Shown: positions 57,016 through 64,000 of the stretch, piece by piece
Layout of the letters: the number at the start of each line of letters is the position of its first letter
Numbering within the stretch: the stretch's first letter is position 1
Source of the DNA: Sphingopyxis yananensis
GTDB taxonomy: Bacteria > Pseudomonadota > Alphaproteobacteria > Sphingomonadales > Sphingomonadaceae
Length of the DNA stretch: 64,000 bases
Direction: 5' to 3'
Assembly: GCF_020687785.1 (NCBI RefSeq)
Contig: NZ_JAJEWI010000005.1
Coordinates: forward strand, 682,001 to 746,000
Made by a program: the position numbers and the translations under genes
The notes under the pieces: generated by a model
Seen by the model: only the letters and a program-made list of their open reading frames with translations
Database searches by the model: none
What the model was told of the DNA's origin: nothing

Positions 57016-59451
57016 GTGACAGATTTGCTGAAATTGGCCATTATTGGTTCTGGCCCCGCCGGATTGAGCGCCGCATCGCGGGCGGCCATGCTGGGCATGA
57101 GCCATATTTTGTTGGAAAAAACGGACCATCTGTCCGACACGATTTTTAAATATCAAAAGGGCAAGCGCGTTTTGGCGACGCCAGAGCGGCTGGATTTGCG
57201 GTCGGATTGCCGATTTGCCGAGGGTGCGCGCGAAGTTATTTTGGCCAATTGGGACGAAGACGCCGCGCAGTGCGGGGTGAATGTCGCCTATCAGGCCGAT
57301 GTGACGGGGGTTAGCGGGCAAAAGGGTGATTTTACCCTGACCACCGCCGATGGCCGCCAATTTCGCGCCGAACATATTGTGTTGGCGATTGGCACACAGG
57401 GCAACCCCAATCGCTTGCGCTGCGAGGGATATGATCTGCCGCATATCATCTATCAGGTGGACGATCCCGAAGATTTTAAAGACAAGCATATTACGGTGGT
57501 CGGATCGGGCGATGCGGGCATTGAAAATGCGCTGGGCGTGGCCGAAGAGGCGCTGGAAAATCATGTTACCATATTGAACCGCAGCCGCGATTTTGCGCGG
57601 GCGAAGGCCAAAAATGTGTCCGATATGATGGATGCTGCTGATAATGGTTTGATGCGCGTTCGCACGGAAACCCAGCCTAAAAAGGTCGAGGCTGGCTGGT
57701 TGACGCTGGACACACCCGATGGCGAAGAGCGTATCCCGTGCGACGTGATCGTCGCGCGGTTGGGGTCGGTCGCGCCGCGCGCCTTTGTGGAATCGATGGG
57801 CATTGAATTTACGGGGCCGGACCGCGAGGCATTCCCGAAATTATCCCCAACCTTTGAAACCAGTGTTGGCGGCATTTTCGTGATTGGGGCGCTGGCGGGT
57901 TATCCGCTCATCAAACATTGTATGAACCAAGGCTATGACGTGGCCGAGTTTATAAATGGCAATGATGCGCTGACCCCCGCCGATGAAAAGGATTTGGCCG
58001 CGATTTTTGCGGACCTGCCACAGAAAAAATCGGTCAGCGCGTGGTTGGAATATTTCCGGCAGCGGATCAGTATTTTCCACGATGTATCGCCGTTGCAGAT
58101 GCGCGAATTTATGTTGGACAGCCGCGCGGCCTTTTATGCCAAGGGTGAGGTGGTGTTTGAAAAGGGTGATCCCGGATCATCTTTGTTCGCCATTGCCGAT
58201 GGCTTTGCCGAAGTGGAGGTGGCGCCCAATGTGCGTATTCCCATTGAGCAAGGGTCGATTTTCGGCGAAGTCGGCCTGATTTCGGGGCGCAAGCGCGGGG
58301 CAACCATTGTGGCCGGCGTGGATGCCATTTTTGTGGAGGTGACGCGCACGGCGGCGCTGAAATTAATGGCGGCGGTGCCGGGGGCCAAGCGGGCGATCAA
58401 CCGGATATCGCTGGAGCGGCAATTGCTGCAAATCTTTAAGGGCGGCTTGACCGTTCAAGATTTGAGCGAGGTTGTGGAACAAGCCGAGGTCATGCGTTTT
58501 CCGGCGGGGAAAGTGGTAGTGGCCGAAGGCGATACGGGCGATGACATATATGTCATTCGGTCGGGGTCGATGGTGGTCGAAAAGGATATTGGCGGAAAGC
58601 CGATCTTTTTACGCTATTTGCCCGCGGGCAGCTATTTTGGCGAAATGTCGGTGCTGAGCGGTGCGCCGCGTAACGCCACGGTGAAAGCGGCGGTCGGGTC
58701 CGAGGTGATCAAGCTGACCGGTGAGACATTCCGTAAAATGCTGGATGCACGGCCCAATGTGCGCGCTGAAACCGAAGCCGCCATGGCCGAACGGGCCAGC
58801 ATGAACGCCTTTATTGAAAGCCGCAAAGCCAGCTATAGCAGCGCGGTGGACCTGTATAGCGACACCGCCAGCTTCATTATGAAAGAGGGGCTGGGCGAGG
58901 CGACGGACGCCTTGTTGATTGACGAAAATCTGTGCGTTGGTTGTGACAATTGCGAAAAAGCCTGTGCGGACAGCCATGAGGGCTTGTCGCGATTGGACCG
59001 CGAAGCTGGCAAAAGCTTTGCTCATTTGCATGTGCCGACCAGTTGCCGCCACTGTGAACATCCGCATTGTATGGCCGATTGCCCGCCCAATGTGATTCAC
59101 CGTGGGCCGGACGGCGAAGTGTTTATGGAGGATGGCTGTATTGGTTGCGGCAATTGTATGCGCAATTGCCCCTATGGCGTCATTCGGATGGAGGCGACGC
59201 CGCCGAAAAAGCCCAGCCTGTTCCAATGGCTGTTATTCGGCTTTGGCCCCGGACCGGGGGAGCCGTCACCCAGTTGGACGAAAAAGCAATTGGGCGATGA
59301 AAAGCCCAAAAAAATCGCGGTGAAATGCGACATGTGCAAGGGCATATCGGGCGGGCCAGCCTGTGTGCGGGCGTGCCCGACAGGGGCCGCCATTCGCGTA
59401 TCACCCGAAGAATTTTTGTCCATTGCCCGTTTGGATGGGGGGCAGGGATAA
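57016..59451 (+). CDS. Fusion: flavin reductase + two cNMP-binding domains + 4x[4Fe-4S] ferredoxin
   Basis: 811 residues in three parts. Residues 1-320 are a thioredoxin-reductase-like FAD/NAD(P) fold (LAIIGSGPAGLSAASRA; second Rossmann motif VVGSGDAGIENA; GGIFVIGALAGYPLIKH) with no CxxC redox pair. Residues about 370-605 hold two cyclic-nucleotide-binding domains; both keep the phosphate cassette Glu and Arg (FGEVGLISGRKRGATI and FGEMSVLSGAPRNATV). Residues about 630-790 are a DmsB/NrfC-like ferredoxin with 16 cysteines in four groups (CVGCDNCEKAC, CRHCEHPHCMADC, CIGCGNCMRNC, CDMCKGISGGPACVRAC), enough for four [4Fe-4S] clusters. A cytoplasmic NAD(P)H-to-quinone/haem electron conduit, gated by cyclic nucleotide, is the natural reading. 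The GTG start lacks a strong ribosome-binding site. The stop overlaps the next gene by one base. Confidence 0.85.
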   Translation: MTDLLKLAIIGSGPAGLSAASRAAMLGMSHILLEKTDHLSDTIFKYQKGKRVLATPERLDLRSDCRFAEGAREVILANWDEDAAQCGVNVAYQADVTGVSGQKGDFTLTTADGRQFRAEHIVLAIGTQGNPNRLRCEGYDLPHIIYQVDDPEDFKDKHITVVGSGDAGIENALGVAEEALENHVTILNRSRDFARAKAKNVSDMMDAADNGLMRVRTETQPKKVEAGWLTLDTPDGEERIPCDVIVARLGSVAPRAFVESMGIEFTGPDREAFPKLSPTFETSVGGIFVIGALAGYPLIKHCMNQGYDVAEFINGNDALTPADEKDLAAIFADLPQKKSVSAWLEYFRQRISIFHDVSPLQMREFMLDSRAAFYAKGEVVFEKGDPGSSLFAIADGFAEVEVAPNVRIPIEQGSIFGEVGLISGRKRGATIVAGVDAIFVEVTRTAALKLMAAVPGAKRAINRISLERQLLQIFKGGLTVQDLSEVVEQAEVMRFPAGKVVVAEGDTGDDIYVIRSGSMVVEKDIGGKPIFLRYLPAGSYFGEMSVLSGAPRNATVKAAVGSEVIKLTGETFRKMLDARPNVRAETEAAMAERASMNAFIESRKASYSSAVDLYSDTASFIMKEGLGEATDALLIDENLCVGCDNCEKACADSHEGLSRLDREAGKSFAHLHVPTSCRHCEHPHCMADCPPNVIHRGPDGEVFMEDGCIGCGNCMRNCPYGVIRMEATPPKKPSLFQWLLFGFGPGPGEPSPSWTKKQLGDEKPKKIAVKCDMCKGISGGPACVRACPTGAAIRVSPEEFLSIARLDGGQG

Positions 59452-60329
59452 TGGCCAGCCTTTTTTCCCGCCGCCGCAACAAAGCGGCGCAGAACAGCCG
59501 TGTGCGCGAGCAAAAGCATGAAGGCTTTATGCGCTATGCGGGTTTTCGCTGGGCGAAAATTTCGGGCGGGCTGACCTTGCTGGTCATGGCGTCTTATGCG
59601 CTGATTGATGTCAGTCCGCGTCACAATGGCGGCAGCTGGTATGGCTATACGCTGGGGACCATGGGCGCGTTGCTGATTTTGTGGCTGACGATGCTGGGCG
59701 TGCGAAAACGCCGCCGCAGCGATGATCATTGGTCGTTAAAGGCATGGACATCAGCCCATGTGTATTTGGGATTGTCGCTGGCGGTGATTGGAACATGGCA
59801 CAGCGGATTTCAACTGGGTTGGAATGTCCACACGCTGGCATGGGCGCTGATGATGCTGGTCATAGTGTCGGGCATGTATGGCATCGCGGTTTACGCGCTG
59901 TTGCCGCGCAGCCTGTCCGCCAACCGCGAAGAAATGACCCAGATGCAAATGCTGGAGGCGCTGCGCGCCTTTGACCGGCAATTGCATGGCACGGCGCAAG
60001 GCTTGGCCCCTGCCGACGCCGCACCGGTGTTGGCGGCGCTGAGTGAAAACCCGTTTGCGGGCGGCATGGCGGCGCGCTTGTCGGGCCGTTATCCACGCTG
60101 TGCGACGGCGGAAGCGTTGGCGCAATTGGGGCAGCGCCGCGGGACCAGCGAAGATGTGGAGAAAGTCGTGGGGTTGCTGGGCCAGAAACAAGCCGCATTA
60201 GGGCGGCTACGGCGACATTTGCGGCTGCGGGCGCTGCTGGAAATATGGTTATATGTGCATGTGCCGCTGACCTTTGCTTTGATTGCGGCGCTGTCGGCGC
60301 ATGTCATCAGCGTGTTCTTTTACTGGTAA
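59451..60329 (+). CDS. Di-haem cytochrome b-like membrane protein
   Basis: 292 residues with about five membrane helices. H103 and H117 lie in one helix and H270 and H284 in the last helix; both pairs are spaced exactly 14 residues, the arrangement that ligates two b haems in cytochrome b of bc complexes and related membrane cytochromes. Between them is a long cytoplasmic-looking loop (about residues 155-260) rich in charged residues. The protein resembles membrane anchors of DmsC/cytochrome b561-type complexes only in topology. It overlaps the upstream fusion gene by one base (TAATG) and precedes the multihaem gene by 13 bp, so it likely carries electrons from the cytoplasmic ferredoxin to the periplasmic cytochrome. 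Confidence 0.8.
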   Translation: MASLFSRRRNKAAQNSRVREQKHEGFMRYAGFRWAKISGGLTLLVMASYALIDVSPRHNGGSWYGYTLGTMGALLILWLTMLGVRKRRRSDDHWSLKAWTSAHVYLGLSLAVIGTWHSGFQLGWNVHTLAWALMMLVIVSGMYGIAVYALLPRSLSANREEMTQMQMLEALRAFDRQLHGTAQGLAPADAAPVLAALSENPFAGGMAARLSGRYPRCATAEALAQLGQRRGTSEDVEKVVGLLGQKQAALGRLRRHLRLRALLEIWLYVHVPLTFALIAALSAHVISVFFYW

Positions 60330-60342
60330 GCGGGGAGGGCAT

Positions 60343-62313
60343 ATGAGCTTCATACTTCGCCGCATTGCCACCACGCGCAGCGGCAAACAGATTATTCGCG
60401 ATAGCGTCCTGGACGGCGACCAGATTTTGCTGGGCCGCGATAGCGCCAATGCCCTTCACATCACGGATTTGGCGGTGAACCCGCATCACGCCACGATCAG
60501 CAGCCATGATGGCCGCATGGTGCGCGTGGTGGCGCAAGAGGGGTTGGGATTCGACCTGAATGGCCGCACATTGGACGTGGCGGATATTGACAGCATGGGC
60601 GGTGCGGAGCTGCGTTTTGGTAGCCACCGCCTGACCATCAGCCAAGAAGATCAGCAGATCATCTTGTTGGTCGAGCGCATTGACGAATTGTCCGAGGCAT
60701 CGCGCCATATTGACGAAGCGCGGGCCTTTTCTTTGGCGGGTTTGCTGCCTGGCAAGCGGATCAGCGCATGGCTGTTTGCGGCGCTGATGCTGGTCGCCTT
60801 TTTGGCGGGGCCAATTTGGGCGTGGCAAACATTTCGCGGCGTGGATGAACGGCCAGAGGGCTTTCATGCCGACAAGACATGGAGCAGTGGGCCTTTGTCC
60901 AGCGCCCATGCCAGTTTGAAAAATGACTGCCAAAGCTGTCACGTCGATGCCTTTGTTGCGGTGACGGACAAGGCTTGTGTGAGCTGCCATACCGGCGAAC
61001 ATAAGGCGATGAGCAAGGCCCATGCAAACGCCAGCAGCGCGATGTTGCTGGCGGCGCGGCGCGAAGGCAGTTTGGGGGACCAGTTTTTGGCCCGCATCGC
61101 CCAAAGCTTTAACCGCCCGCAAGGCCGCTGTGTGGATTGCCACACCGAACATGAAGGCGCGGGAGCGATGCCCGCCACACCGCAGAAATTTTGTGCCGAT
61201 TGCCATGATGGCATGGCCGGACGGTTGAGCCGCGCGGGGCACCCGACCACATTGGCGGACGCCGCCGATTTCGGCACCGACCACCCCGAATTCCGGCCCT
61301 TGGCGCGCACTGCCATGGGCGCGAAGCCGGAGCGTTTGGTGTTGAGCGACCAAAGCATCGACATCAATGGATTGAAATTCCCGCATGATGTCCATCTGGA
61401 TGGGAATGGCGGCGTGGCCCGCATGGCCGCCAGTTTTCGCGGCCAATATGATTTCGGCAAAAAGCTGGAATGCCGCAATTGCCACACGCCAGAAGCGGGG
61501 GGCGTGGGATTGCAGCCCGTGAATATGCAGCGCGATTGTGCGATGTGCCACAGCCTGACCTTTGAAACGGTGGGCGGGGTGAAGCGCACGCTGCGCCATG
61601 GGAAGCCGGATCAGGTAGCGGCCGATTTGACCGCTTATTACCGGTCCACCGCGCCGTCGGCGGGCTTGCAATTGGGCGGCATTGAACGACGCAGGCCCGG
61701 TCAATATGCCGAGGGGCAGATTTACAACATCTATTTCCGCGAAAGCCAAATGCGCCCCAGCCGCGCCGAAGATGCGGTGCGGGCGGTCTTTTCGCTCGGC
61801 GGGGCCTGTTATGACTGCCACACCATCTATGCGCCCACCGCTGGCAAAGGATGGCGTGTGGAGCCTGTGACGCAGACAGCACGCTTTATGGAAAAAGGCT
61901 GGTTCGACCATGGCACGCACAAGGAAACCGCTTGTGCGGATTGCCATGTGAGCGCGTCGAAGTCCGCAAAAAGTCAGGATTTGCTGTTGCCGAGCGTTGC
62001 GCAATGCCGGACCTGCCATGTTGGCGAAACAGGGGCGTCACTGAAAAAAGTGAAGGTGGAAACCAAATCTTCATGCGCGATGTGCCATGAATATCACCAA
62101 GATGGGGGGAGGCCGTGGCAGCCAGCGGACGACCGGAAAAAAGCCAATTATCGGGACAGAGAAAATATGCGGCGGAATGTCGATGTGAGCGCCGTCACAA
62201 AGTCAGGACAGGAAGCCGTATATATTAGCGCCGTGCCAATCGCGCCGAAAATGCTTTATCGTGTAACGTGGCGGGAGATCGGTCAGCCGGACAACCGCAT
62301 GGGTGCAAGTTAG
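60343..62313 (+). CDS. FHA-like domain + membrane helix + decahaem cytochrome c
   Basis: 656 residues from ATG 60343 (GGGGAGGG site). Residues 1-110 resemble an FHA domain (LLGRDSANALHITDLAVNPHHATI), but the usual Ser-Arg of the phosphothreonine site is replaced by Asn-Pro (residues 46-47), so binding may be altered. One membrane helix is at about residues 140-163 (AWLFAALMLVAFLAGPIWAW). The rest is periplasmic with ten CxxCH haem motifs (CQSCH, CVSCH, CVDCH, CADCH, CRNCH, CAMCH, CYDCH, CADCH, CRTCH, CAMCH), like cytochrome c3/c7-type multihaem proteins. It is the third gene of the module; the haem chain probably receives electrons from the cytochrome b-like protein and passes them to an unknown periplasmic or outer-membrane acceptor, or runs in reverse. 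Confidence 0.85.
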   Translation: MSFILRRIATTRSGKQIIRDSVLDGDQILLGRDSANALHITDLAVNPHHATISSHDGRMVRVVAQEGLGFDLNGRTLDVADIDSMGGAELRFGSHRLTISQEDQQIILLVERIDELSEASRHIDEARAFSLAGLLPGKRISAWLFAALMLVAFLAGPIWAWQTFRGVDERPEGFHADKTWSSGPLSSAHASLKNDCQSCHVDAFVAVTDKACVSCHTGEHKAMSKAHANASSAMLLAARREGSLGDQFLARIAQSFNRPQGRCVDCHTEHEGAGAMPATPQKFCADCHDGMAGRLSRAGHPTTLADAADFGTDHPEFRPLARTAMGAKPERLVLSDQSIDINGLKFPHDVHLDGNGGVARMAASFRGQYDFGKKLECRNCHTPEAGGVGLQPVNMQRDCAMCHSLTFETVGGVKRTLRHGKPDQVAADLTAYYRSTAPSAGLQLGGIERRRPGQYAEGQIYNIYFRESQMRPSRAEDAVRAVFSLGGACYDCHTIYAPTAGKGWRVEPVTQTARFMEKGWFDHGTHKETACADCHVSASKSAKSQDLLLPSVAQCRTCHVGETGASLKKVKVETKSSCAMCHEYHQDGGRPWQPADDRKKANYRDRENMRRNVDVSAVTKSGQEAVYISAVPIAPKMLYRVTWREIGQPDNRMGAS

Positions 62314-62363: not shown

Positions 62364-63224
62364 ATGTTGATCGCACAGATAACAGACGTGCATATCGGGT
62401 TTGACCCAAATAATGTGGATGAGTTTAATCAACAGCGATTGGTGGCGGTGTTGGCGGCCTTGGCCGAAGGACCGAACCAGCCGGATTTGCTGTTGTTGAC
62501 CGGCGATTTGGCCGATCATGGCGATCAAGACAGTTATTTACGATTAAAAGCGGCCTTGGGCGATTGCCCCTATCCATGGTTTCCGCTGGTTGGAAACCAT
62601 GATGTGCGGGACAATTTCCATGCAATTTTCCCTGATTATGATGATGGCCATGGTTTTGTGCAATATGTGCAGGACTTAGGCGATGTGCGTTTGGTGATGG
62701 TCGATACGCTGGAGGAGGGCCGCCATGGTGGGGCCTTTTGTGATCAGCGCGCTGCGTGGCTGGATAGACGGTTGGGCGAGGCACCGGATAAGCCAACCTA
62801 TATTGTCATGCACCATCCGCCCGTGGAATGCGGCATTGAGTGGATGAACACGGACCCAGAGGAACCGTGGGTTCAGCTTTTTTCGGCGGTTCTGGAACGG
62901 CATGATCAGGTGCGCGGACTGATTTGCGGGCATTTGCACCGCAGCGTAACGGCATCATGGCGTGGACGCACCGTGGCCATTTGTTCATCCAGCGCGCCGC
63001 AAGTGACCGCCGATTTTACACCGCTGGATAGCGAGCGGCCCGACCATCGCGCCATGATTCAGGCCGAAGAGCCGGCTTATGCTTTGCACCGCTGGAACGG
63101 GCGGGAATTGATCAGCTTCTATATGAGCGCGGGCCAACATCCGGTGTTGGCGCGATATGATGAACGAATGCAGCCGCTTGTGCAGCATTTGGAGGCGGAG
63201 CGGCCCGTTTCACCGGACATCTGA
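62364..63224 (+). CDS. Class III cyclic nucleotide phosphodiesterase, CpdA-like metallophosphoesterase
   Basis: 286 residues. The metal-binding motifs are in order: DVHIG (D-x-H), TGDLADHG, VGNHDVR, MHHPP and CGHLHRS. This is the arrangement of CpdA (3',5'-cAMP phosphodiesterase) and its relatives. It follows the multihaem gene by 50 bp on the same strand, with a terminator after it, so it may belong to the module. That would place a cyclic-nucleotide-hydrolysing enzyme beside a protein with two cyclic-nucleotide-binding domains, suggesting a local feedback. Some relatives hydrolyse other phosphodiesters, so the substrate is not certain. Confidence 0.85.
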   Translation: MLIAQITDVHIGFDPNNVDEFNQQRLVAVLAALAEGPNQPDLLLLTGDLADHGDQDSYLRLKAALGDCPYPWFPLVGNHDVRDNFHAIFPDYDDGHGFVQYVQDLGDVRLVMVDTLEEGRHGGAFCDQRAAWLDRRLGEAPDKPTYIVMHHPPVECGIEWMNTDPEEPWVQLFSAVLERHDQVRGLICGHLHRSVTASWRGRTVAICSSSAPQVTADFTPLDSERPDHRAMIQAEEPAYALHRWNGRELISFYMSAGQHPVLARYDERMQPLVQHLEAERPVSPDI

Positions 63225-63363: not shown

Positions 63364-64000
63364 TCAATAGATCCGCGTGGCCGTGTCGTTGGACAGCGGG
63401 CGGGCCGGTGCAGGGCGCGGTTGCGATGCAGCGGCACCATTTTGGCCGCGATTGCCATCAGCGCCAGAGCCCGCTGAATTGCCAGAAGATGCGCCAGCGC
63501 TGCCACCACCAGACCCAGCACCACGGCGGCCCGTTTGTTCTTCGATCCATTTTTGGTCCAGAACAATGGGCTCGTCGGTGGGATAGGTTTCCACCTCGAC
63601 ATTAGGTTCGGCGGGCAGTTCCAGCGGCATGCCATTTTCGTCGACCAAACCATCTTGGCCTGGTTCGCCGAAATATCCGTCGCCTTCTTCTTCGAGTTGC
63701 CATTCGGGCAGGACAACCTCTGTCTCAAATTGTTCGACAGGGCGTTTGGCGACCGCGACGCGCATATAGTCGCTGAACGCCTTGGCGGGGGCGCGGCCAC
63801 CTTGCAGCCCGCCGACGGCCTTGGCATCGTCGCGGCCCATCCACACGCCGGTGGTGATGCCGCTGGAAAAGCCCAAGAACCAGCCGTCTTTGTTGCTGCT
63901 GGTGGTGCCCGTCTTGCCCGCCACGGGGCGGCCAATTTGCGCCGCGCGGCCGGTGCCGGTGTTGACGGCCGTTTGCATCAGATCGGTGATGCCAGCGGCA
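63364..64000 (-). CDS. Class A penicillin-binding protein (PBP1A type), C-terminal part
   Basis: The C-terminal 212 residues are present; the gene continues past the right edge. The transpeptidase KTGTT motif (VAGKTGTTSSNKDGWFLGFS) and the following GVWMGRDDAKAVGGLQGGRAPAKAF are typical of PBP1A, a bifunctional murein glycosyltransferase/transpeptidase. The tail is low-complexity, rich in Gly, Ser, Ala and Pro (about the last 60 residues). A role in cell-wall synthesis is secure; which PBP1 paralogue it is cannot be judged from this part alone. Confidence 0.92.
   Translation of the reverse strand, partial: AAGITDLMQTAVNTGTGRAAQIGRPVAGKTGTTSSNKDGWFLGFSSGITTGVWMGRDDAKAVGGLQGGRAPAKAFSDYMRVAVAKRPVEQFETEVVLPEWQLEEEGDGYFGEPGQDGLVDENGMPLELPAEPNVEVETYPTDEPIVLDQKWIEEQTGRRGAGSGGGSAGASSGNSAGSGADGNRGQNGAAASQPRPAPARPLSNDTATRIY

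Follow-up and report, generated by a model that had tools for sequence, protein, structure and literature searches.

An inner-membrane redox cassette of Sphingopyxis yananensis that may form part of a cyclic-nucleotide-gated electron conduit across the cell envelope

What route would electrons take through the redox cassette at positions 57016 to 62313 of our window, and what would control their flow? The window is a stretch of 64,000 nucleotides from Sphingopyxis yananensis (contig NZ_JAJEWI010000005.1, positions 682,001 to 746,000), and an earlier note on it had read three genes as a complete electron path between NAD(P)H and the periplasm. The domains, the haem ligands and the path were borne out, and the account proved incomplete: it lacked a further decahaem cytochrome, a barrel of the outer membrane and an HbpS-like protein. 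We read the genes as part of a putative multihaem trans-envelope electron conduit of a known kind, with an unusual donor side and sensor, and the gene neighbourhoods indicate that the cassette makes up the inner portion of a larger module, completed by an outer-membrane partner set. The fuller reading, a conduit fed by NADPH, gated by cyclic nucleotides and running through both membranes, has in our judgement an even chance of being right.

The genes of the cassette are as follows (positions are those of the window).
57016..59451, plus strand: gene 1, 811 amino acids with a GTG start, a fusion of a flavin/NAD(P) reductase, two cyclic nucleotide-binding (CNB) domains, CNB-A and CNB-B, and a four-cluster ferredoxin (Pfam, NCBIfam and PDB sequence relatives for each domain; alignments)
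59451..60329, plus strand: gene 2, a membrane protein of 292 amino acids in which two b haems are expected (weak PF01292 match, hydropathy, helical model)
60343..62313, plus strand: gene 3, 656 amino acids, with an FHA-like domain, one membrane helix and a decahaem c domain (Pfam, homologues, CXXCH count, hydropathy)

As the earlier note had described, the three genes overlap or nearly abut: the ATG of gene 2 overlaps the TAA of gene 1 by one base, and the ATG of gene 3 stands 13 bases past the stop codon of gene 2. In Sphingobium records the gene 1 product is annotated only as a cyclic nucleotide-binding domain protein, that of gene 2 as hypothetical and that of gene 3 as a member of the cytochrome c3 family. 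A plasmid search with the b cytochrome gave 12 records, every one from Sphingobium. Sphingobium herbicidovorans MH carries the cassette on pMSHV.

Homologous loci were collected by scanning named genomes with the reductase alignment and the peptide patterns CEHP[HY]CM and [IF]FGE[VM]GL[IL]S. At tblastn E 1e-3 there were at least 583 relatives, a figure that includes partial matches and is not a count of cassettes; the best 80 by likeness to the protein of locus L037 were examined. Together with the window protein and seven further loci drawn from elsewhere, these 80 gave an 88-row alignment of gene 1 proteins. The scan patterns themselves select Glu418 and two of the 16 ferredoxin cysteines, and the remaining residues discussed below are unbiased. 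The domains of gene 1 are listed here.
57031..57933, plus strand: flavin/NAD(P)-binding reductase domain, residues 6-306, lacking the active-site cysteine of YpdA (PF07992, 101.1 bits)
58258..58305, plus strand: phosphate-binding cassette of CNB-A, FGEVGLISGRKRGAT, with Glu418 and Arg427 (both residues in 88 of 88 rows)
58492..58746, plus strand: CNB-B, with cassette FGEMSVLSGAPRNAT, Glu543 and Arg552 (best PF00027 stretch 493-577; both residues in 88 of 88 rows)
58912..59415, plus strand: ferredoxin domain with 16 cysteines, four [4Fe-4S] clusters expected (Fer4 families, HycB/HydN-type relatives; 16 cysteines in 88 of 88 rows)

PF00027 matched the gene 1 protein in two stretches with 109.8 bits against a cut-off of 27.5, which makes it a cyclic nucleotide-binding domain protein, and Pfam placed the 4Fe-4S region at residues about 633-800. 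All 88 aligned proteins keep the 16 cysteines together with the glutamate and arginine of both cassettes. The domain matches and these residues bear out the first description of the protein as a flavin reductase with two intact-looking cyclic-nucleotide sites and a four-cluster ferredoxin.

The relatives of the N-terminal domain are the YpdA/Bdr disulfide reductases and the TrxR-like ferredoxin-NADP reductases (TIGR04018; PDB 7a76, 7a7b, 5ygq). Unlike YpdA/Bdr, gene 1 scored below the TIGR04018 cut-off (119.1 bits against 339.9), is fused to CNB and ferredoxin domains, and has alanine at residue 15, which we take to be the position of the YpdA active-site cysteine. Among the 87 rows with a residue there, cysteine was present in 5 and missing in 82. 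No NCBIfam cut-off was reached among the best 25 of 136 matches. Since the YpdA-type cysteine is absent, the flavin probably feeds the iron-sulphur clusters rather than a disulfide. The donor would be NADPH rather than NADH.

The next carrier would be the gene 2 protein, whose expected haem ligands are listed here.
59757..59801, plus strand: haem-b ligand pair H103/H117 (75 of 75 rows; kept in the variant loci L047 and L048)
60258..60302, plus strand: haem-b ligand pair H270/H284 (72 of 72 gap-free rows; kept in L047 and L048)

The two pairs, each 14 residues apart, had been predicted at exactly these positions, and they are invariant wherever they are aligned: His103 and His117, like His127, occur in all 75 rows, and His270 and His284 in all 72 rows lacking a gap there. 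His127 is thus a fifth invariant histidine, and it is not kept in L047 and L048. The structure model of gene 2 was helical and confident (mean predicted local distance difference test (pLDDT) score, 88.2), with the pairs on helices 96-118 and 234-291. In NADPH oxidases, ferric reductases and STEAP proteins, two histidine pairs about 14 residues apart on two helices hold two b haems across the membrane. Gene 2 resembles these membrane domains in having two pairs 13-14 apart on two helices; it differs in lacking a Pfam Ferric_reduct match and in receiving its electrons from a separate iron-sulphur protein.

Database searches placed gene 2 less clearly. There were zero NCBIfam matches, and Foldseek with the model gave 0 matches at E 0.001. 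A second structure aligner ranked helical sensor bundles at the top (best Z 12.2), a kind of match against which it carries a warning, and gave STEAP1 Z 7.4, under the level that it trusts for helical bundles. A PDB sequence search with the b cytochrome had myosin light chains as its best rows, with E values from 0.22 upward. In Pfam, PF01292 (Ni_hydr_CYTB/cytochrome b561) reached 24.6 bits (E 0.1), under its cut-off of 30.1. This weak match to a cytochrome b561/hydrogenase-type family would suit a quinone enzyme, and quinone-handling cytochromes b can also carry two b haems on two helices. Gene 2 might then be an NAD(P)H:quinone or a quinol:cytochrome c oxidoreductase, or electrons might flow inward and make NADPH from an outside source; the direction of flow is not readable from sequence. 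We consider this group of alternatives distinctly unlikely, for a direct route is simpler on two counts: the ferredoxin is fused to the cytochrome b in loci L038 and L039, and neither NapC nor Rieske families appeared among the Pfam matches. The Rieske search covered genes 1-4 (25 of 28 families listed for gene 1) and the outer-set proteins tested.

From the direct route the electrons would pass to the gene 3 protein.
60406..60624, plus strand: FHA-like cytoplasmic domain, residues 22-94 (Yop-YscD_cpl 17.5 bits and FHA 17.1 bits, both under cut-off)
60760..60816, plus strand: membrane anchor, residues 140-158, between the N-terminal domain and the haems (hydropathy 2.17)
60928..62088, plus strand: ten CXXCH haem c sites (motif count)

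When this protein was shuffled 10,000 times, CXXCH occurred 0.025 times on average and never more than twice, against ten in the real sequence. Those ten motifs and the one hydrophobic segment agree with the proposal of a membrane-bound decahaem cytochrome c. Of 70 homologues, 62 likewise have ten motifs; six of the remaining eight are truncated where the locus ends, and L098 and L133 have seven each. The counterparts in L038 and L039 have nine. The FHA-like domain that had been claimed for gene 3 stood only in part: the window protein falls under the PF00498 (FHA) cut-off (17.1 against 20.7 bits), whereas the homologues of L119 and L084 pass it with 31.1 and 23.9 bits. A Gly-Arg pair is present in all 76 rows with a residue there. 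The serine of the phosphothreonine pocket is not conserved, so that phosphothreonine binding by this domain is doubtful. No NCBIfam match of gene 3 reached its cut-off, and ExtN (NF040967) gave 22.2 of 200 bits. We gave no weight to a 61-residue likeness to hydroxylamine oxidoreductase (E 1e-5), a match generic to multihaem proteins.

Variant loci bear on the order of these parts. Genes 1 and 2 are naturally fused in L038 (L038:4850-8206, 1118 amino acids) and L039 (L039:3052-6423, 1123 amino acids). L047:2-8498 opens with a gene that looks by eye like an outer-membrane barrel and goes on with a separate NAD/2Fe-2S reductase, a C554-like tetrahaem protein and a CNB-ferredoxin protein without the flavin domain; it also encodes a b cytochrome and a decahaem protein in which FHA found no match. 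At L048:9194-11891 a related b cytochrome adjoins an open reading frame with 24 CXXCH motifs, and a CNB-free iron-sulphur flavin protein lies about 4.4 kb off on the opposite strand. Both L047 and L048 retain the four haem-b histidines. The fusions and these swaps of the input module, which leave the haem-b histidines in place, support the membrane crossing and the order of the parts. A constant membrane core with a modular input also supports a pyridine-nucleotide donor, with the CNB domains as a likely added control.

How widely is this arrangement kept? The titles of the 80 best loci are alpha-, beta- and gammaproteobacterial (Lysobacterales, Solimonas, Nevskia, Rhodospirillaceae, Betaproteobacteria, Burkholderiales, Thiotrichales, Alcanivorax and others), and the cassette is not confined to one lineage. 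The titles of four metagenome bins (L097, Rhizobium; L120, Klebsiella; L127, Marinimicrobia; L136, Bordetella) look misassigned, their cassettes resembling those of other groups. Partners were counted anywhere in a locus by a 60-bit rule, which gave the cytochrome b in 67 loci, the decahaem cytochrome in 70, an HbpS-like protein in 57, a barrel in 54 and a giant cytochrome in 49. The earlier note had suggested a search for the three-gene neighbourhood across genomes. Where at least 1.5 kb of sequence follows the reductase, the cytochrome b was found in 64 of 74 loci, and where at least 4 kb follows, the decahaem gene in 65 of 67. Among the 10 loci without the cytochrome b, the run from decahaem to giant cytochrome lies upstream of the reductase in L115, L131, L134, L135 and L138, and the giant cytochrome does so in L140 and L142; no partner was found in L095, L100 or L110.

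These counts extend the cassette outward. In many of the 80 loci a same-strand run leads from the reductase through the cytochrome b, the decahaem cytochrome, the HbpS-like protein and the barrel to the giant cytochrome. At least 9 kb of sequence follows the reductase in 52 loci, of which 43 contain the HbpS-like gene, 42 the barrel and 43 the giant cytochrome. In L115, L131, L134, L135, L136 and L138, four of them with betaproteobacterial titles, the decahaem gene comes first, followed by the HbpS-like, barrel, giant cytochrome and C554-like genes and last by the reductase. A C554-like family was present in 26 of the 80 loci; L092, L113, L120 and L124 have two tandem C554-like genes, not one, just upstream of the reductase. 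In the window's genome the C554-like, HbpS-like, barrel and giant cytochrome genes form a tight run on the plus strand (L144:3818-13508, equal to G000:C1:345817-355507), about 384 kb from the cassette. This run is likely to be the cassette's partner set, and CcmE is present for haem c attachment.

The barrel was modelled from the L119 homologue, which is 58% identical to that of the window's genome. The model (mean pLDDT 68.6) had 18 long strands, and its Foldseek matches were the alginate exporter AlgE (E 2.3e-18; template-modelling (TM) score 0.69 by target and 0.50 by query) and Occ porins. The C-terminal residue was Tyr or Phe in the entries reaching a stop. An outer-membrane place is well supported for the modelled protein, and an MtrB-like sheath is less likely. 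The giant cytochrome combines an LVIVD region with ten CXXCH motifs (ten in 42 of 49 matches, the others mostly cut at locus ends). A PDB sequence search with it gave nothing at E 1, and the two proteins tested against ExtM (NF040943) scored 53 and 64.8 bits with a cut-off of 800. ExtM belongs to the Geobacter extHIJKLMNOPQS cluster, for which the text of PMC5877670 available to us describes an inner-membrane b cytochrome, a decahaem and larger multihaem cytochromes, a porin and a Rieske protein. All of these but the Rieske protein have counterparts in our system, where the giant cytochrome is distantly ExtM-like. It is unlike Ext in that the same text mentions no flavin-CNB-ferredoxin protein or LVIVD part; the giant cytochrome also scores far below the ExtM cut-off, as gene 3 does for ExtN.

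The barrel raises the question of whether electrons leave the periplasm at all. Its model resembles substrate channels, both AlgE and the Occ porins, and Geobacter without ExtI, the porin of the Ext cluster, showed lower selenite and tellurite reduction, according to the accessible part of PMC5877670. The chain might thus end in the periplasm, where the giant cytochrome would reduce a soluble acceptor, such as a chalcogen oxyanion or a chelated metal, admitted by the barrel, and no electrons would cross the outer membrane. Against this, the LVIVD region has been described in cell-surface proteins (PMC2447325, in the portion accessible to us), and the HbpS-like partner of the window's genome has by eye a lipoprotein-type signal, although neither point is decisive. 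We regard a periplasmic end as somewhat unlikely. Because the barrel, the HbpS-like protein and the giant cytochrome accompany the cassette, the path probably runs on beyond the periplasm.

Do the two halves also travel together when they are not neighbours? We compared their presence in a single sample of 398 genomes from the phylum, with profiles for the cytochrome b (E 1e-15) and the giant cytochrome (E 1e-30). The cytochrome b occurred in 16 genomes and the giant cytochrome in 11, all within the 16 (Fisher 5e-18, a value that ignores shared descent). In one family (f1), 8 genomes had both and 11 neither. Of 60 relatives, 33 had both and 26 neither, and the giant cytochrome stood alone in G328, which is 73% complete. 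The giant cytochrome was missing from five genomes with the cassette (G001, G034, G132, G153 and G154), and in G154 the contig, which by its length and a 100% match appears to be that of L063, stops just past the barrel gene. In each of two genera (g4 and g6) one genome has both halves and another has neither, and the halves are unlinked in G000, G214, G405 and G451; neighbourhood alone therefore does not explain the co-occurrence. The co-inheritance of the inner and outer halves, like the gene order and the residues for redox centres and cyclic-nucleotide ligands, is read directly from the sequence comparisons.

Control by a cyclic nucleotide brings in a fourth gene.
62364..63224, plus strand: gene 4, class III phosphodiesterase-like, adjoining gene 3 (PF00149)

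The gap between genes 3 and 4 is 50 bases, and gene 4 is probably in the same operon as genes 1-3. Gene 4 passes PF00149 (66.1 bits, cut-off 21.5), and its metal-site motifs look intact by eye. Its best NCBIfam matches were cyclic-nucleotide phosphodiesterases below their cut-offs, SpdA with 155.8 of 400 bits and CpdA with 87 of 225. Among 18 nearer loci, a counterpart directly follows gene 3 in 11, every one of these from the window's family or Sphingobium; in one more it lies 4.9 kb off, and the other 6 had no match. The window's genome has two class III cyclases. The invariant ligand residues, the phosphodiesterase-like gene beside gene 3 and these cyclases together suggest that a cyclic nucleotide controls the conduit.

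The CNB domains could instead be structural or bind something else, which would leave the conduit ungated. At the loci themselves we noticed no cyclase gene, though none was searched for there; the relative in L048 is free of CNB domains, and the FHA domain has likewise lost its conserved pocket serine. Yet three of the four cassette residues kept in every row lie outside the search pattern, and the phosphodiesterase-like neighbour and the class III cyclases of the genome also count against this alternative. We judge the ungated alternative unlikely.

In the gated conduit that we propose, the cytoplasmic flavin and iron-sulphur arm would oxidise NAD(P)H, its activity set by cyclic nucleotide on the two CNB domains. 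Electrons would pass from the flavin through four [4Fe-4S] clusters to the two b haems of gene 2 and so across the inner membrane, then to the ten c haems of the membrane-anchored periplasmic gene 3 cytochrome. They would next reach the giant decahaem-LVIVD cytochrome, working with the barrel and the HbpS-like lipoprotein, and finally an acceptor at or past the outer membrane. In the window's family, the phosphodiesterase encoded beside the cassette would govern how much ligand is present locally. We infer the NADPH donor, the gating, the outward direction, the acceptor and the passage of electrons rather than substrate through the outer membrane.

Several observations weigh against this proposal. 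The 18-strand barrel model is narrower than an MtrB-type sheath, and the b-cytochrome model is without a clear solved relative. Nine of the 52 loci with enough flank have no giant cytochrome match (L066, L081, L089, L091, L092, L114, L124, L132 and L133), L089 being cut after the HbpS-like gene, and the genomes G001, G034, G132 and G153 have the cassette and no giant cytochrome. L095 and L100 have the reductase and no cytochrome b match despite about 8 and 4 kb downstream. The phosphodiesterase-like gene is limited to 12 of the 18 nearer loci, with no match beside the 80 distant loci, and L048 shows that a relative can do without CNB domains.

Scans for regulatory sites added little. Five sigma-70 sites were found in the scan against 4.5 expected, and 16 terminators against 9.3 expected, the majority within genes. 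FNR-type control (TTGAT-N4-ATCAA, at most 2 mismatches) was considered and dropped: the window held 40 sites against 26 expected and L144 held 13 against 6.8 expected, with no clear site ahead of either operon. Facing the operon on the minus strand (window 63364-64000) is an open reading frame that by reading resembles the C-terminal part of a penicillin-binding protein.

How does this conduit compare with those already known? It is like MtrCAB in having an inner-membrane donor, decahaem cytochromes and an outer-membrane barrel with a decahaem partner. It is unlike MtrCAB in its NAD(P)H-type input, the lack of a NapC-type donor and its 18-strand AlgE-like barrel; the MtrB-type barrel has 26 strands and forms a wider sheath. 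The first description had known of no characterised system with this domain set, and our full-text search, which covers part of the literature, agrees: among the matches listed, no paper described the whole protein set. The best-studied outward electron conduits are quinol-fed and controlled at the level of transcription. More tentatively, and below even chance, the cassette may represent an unnamed trans-envelope conduit present in several classes of Proteobacteria, a cyclic-nucleotide-gated electron channel in which a second messenger such as cyclic AMP switches the flow of NADPH electrons to the surface at the protein level.

If true, an NAD(P)H-fed, nucleotide-switched conduit would be a new way of controlling redox balance. 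With the donor side, the sensor and the inner and outer halves all named, the idea is open to gene removal and simple spectroscopy. Such conduits would then extend to soil, freshwater and marine Proteobacteria that, to our knowledge, are not usually counted as electroactive.

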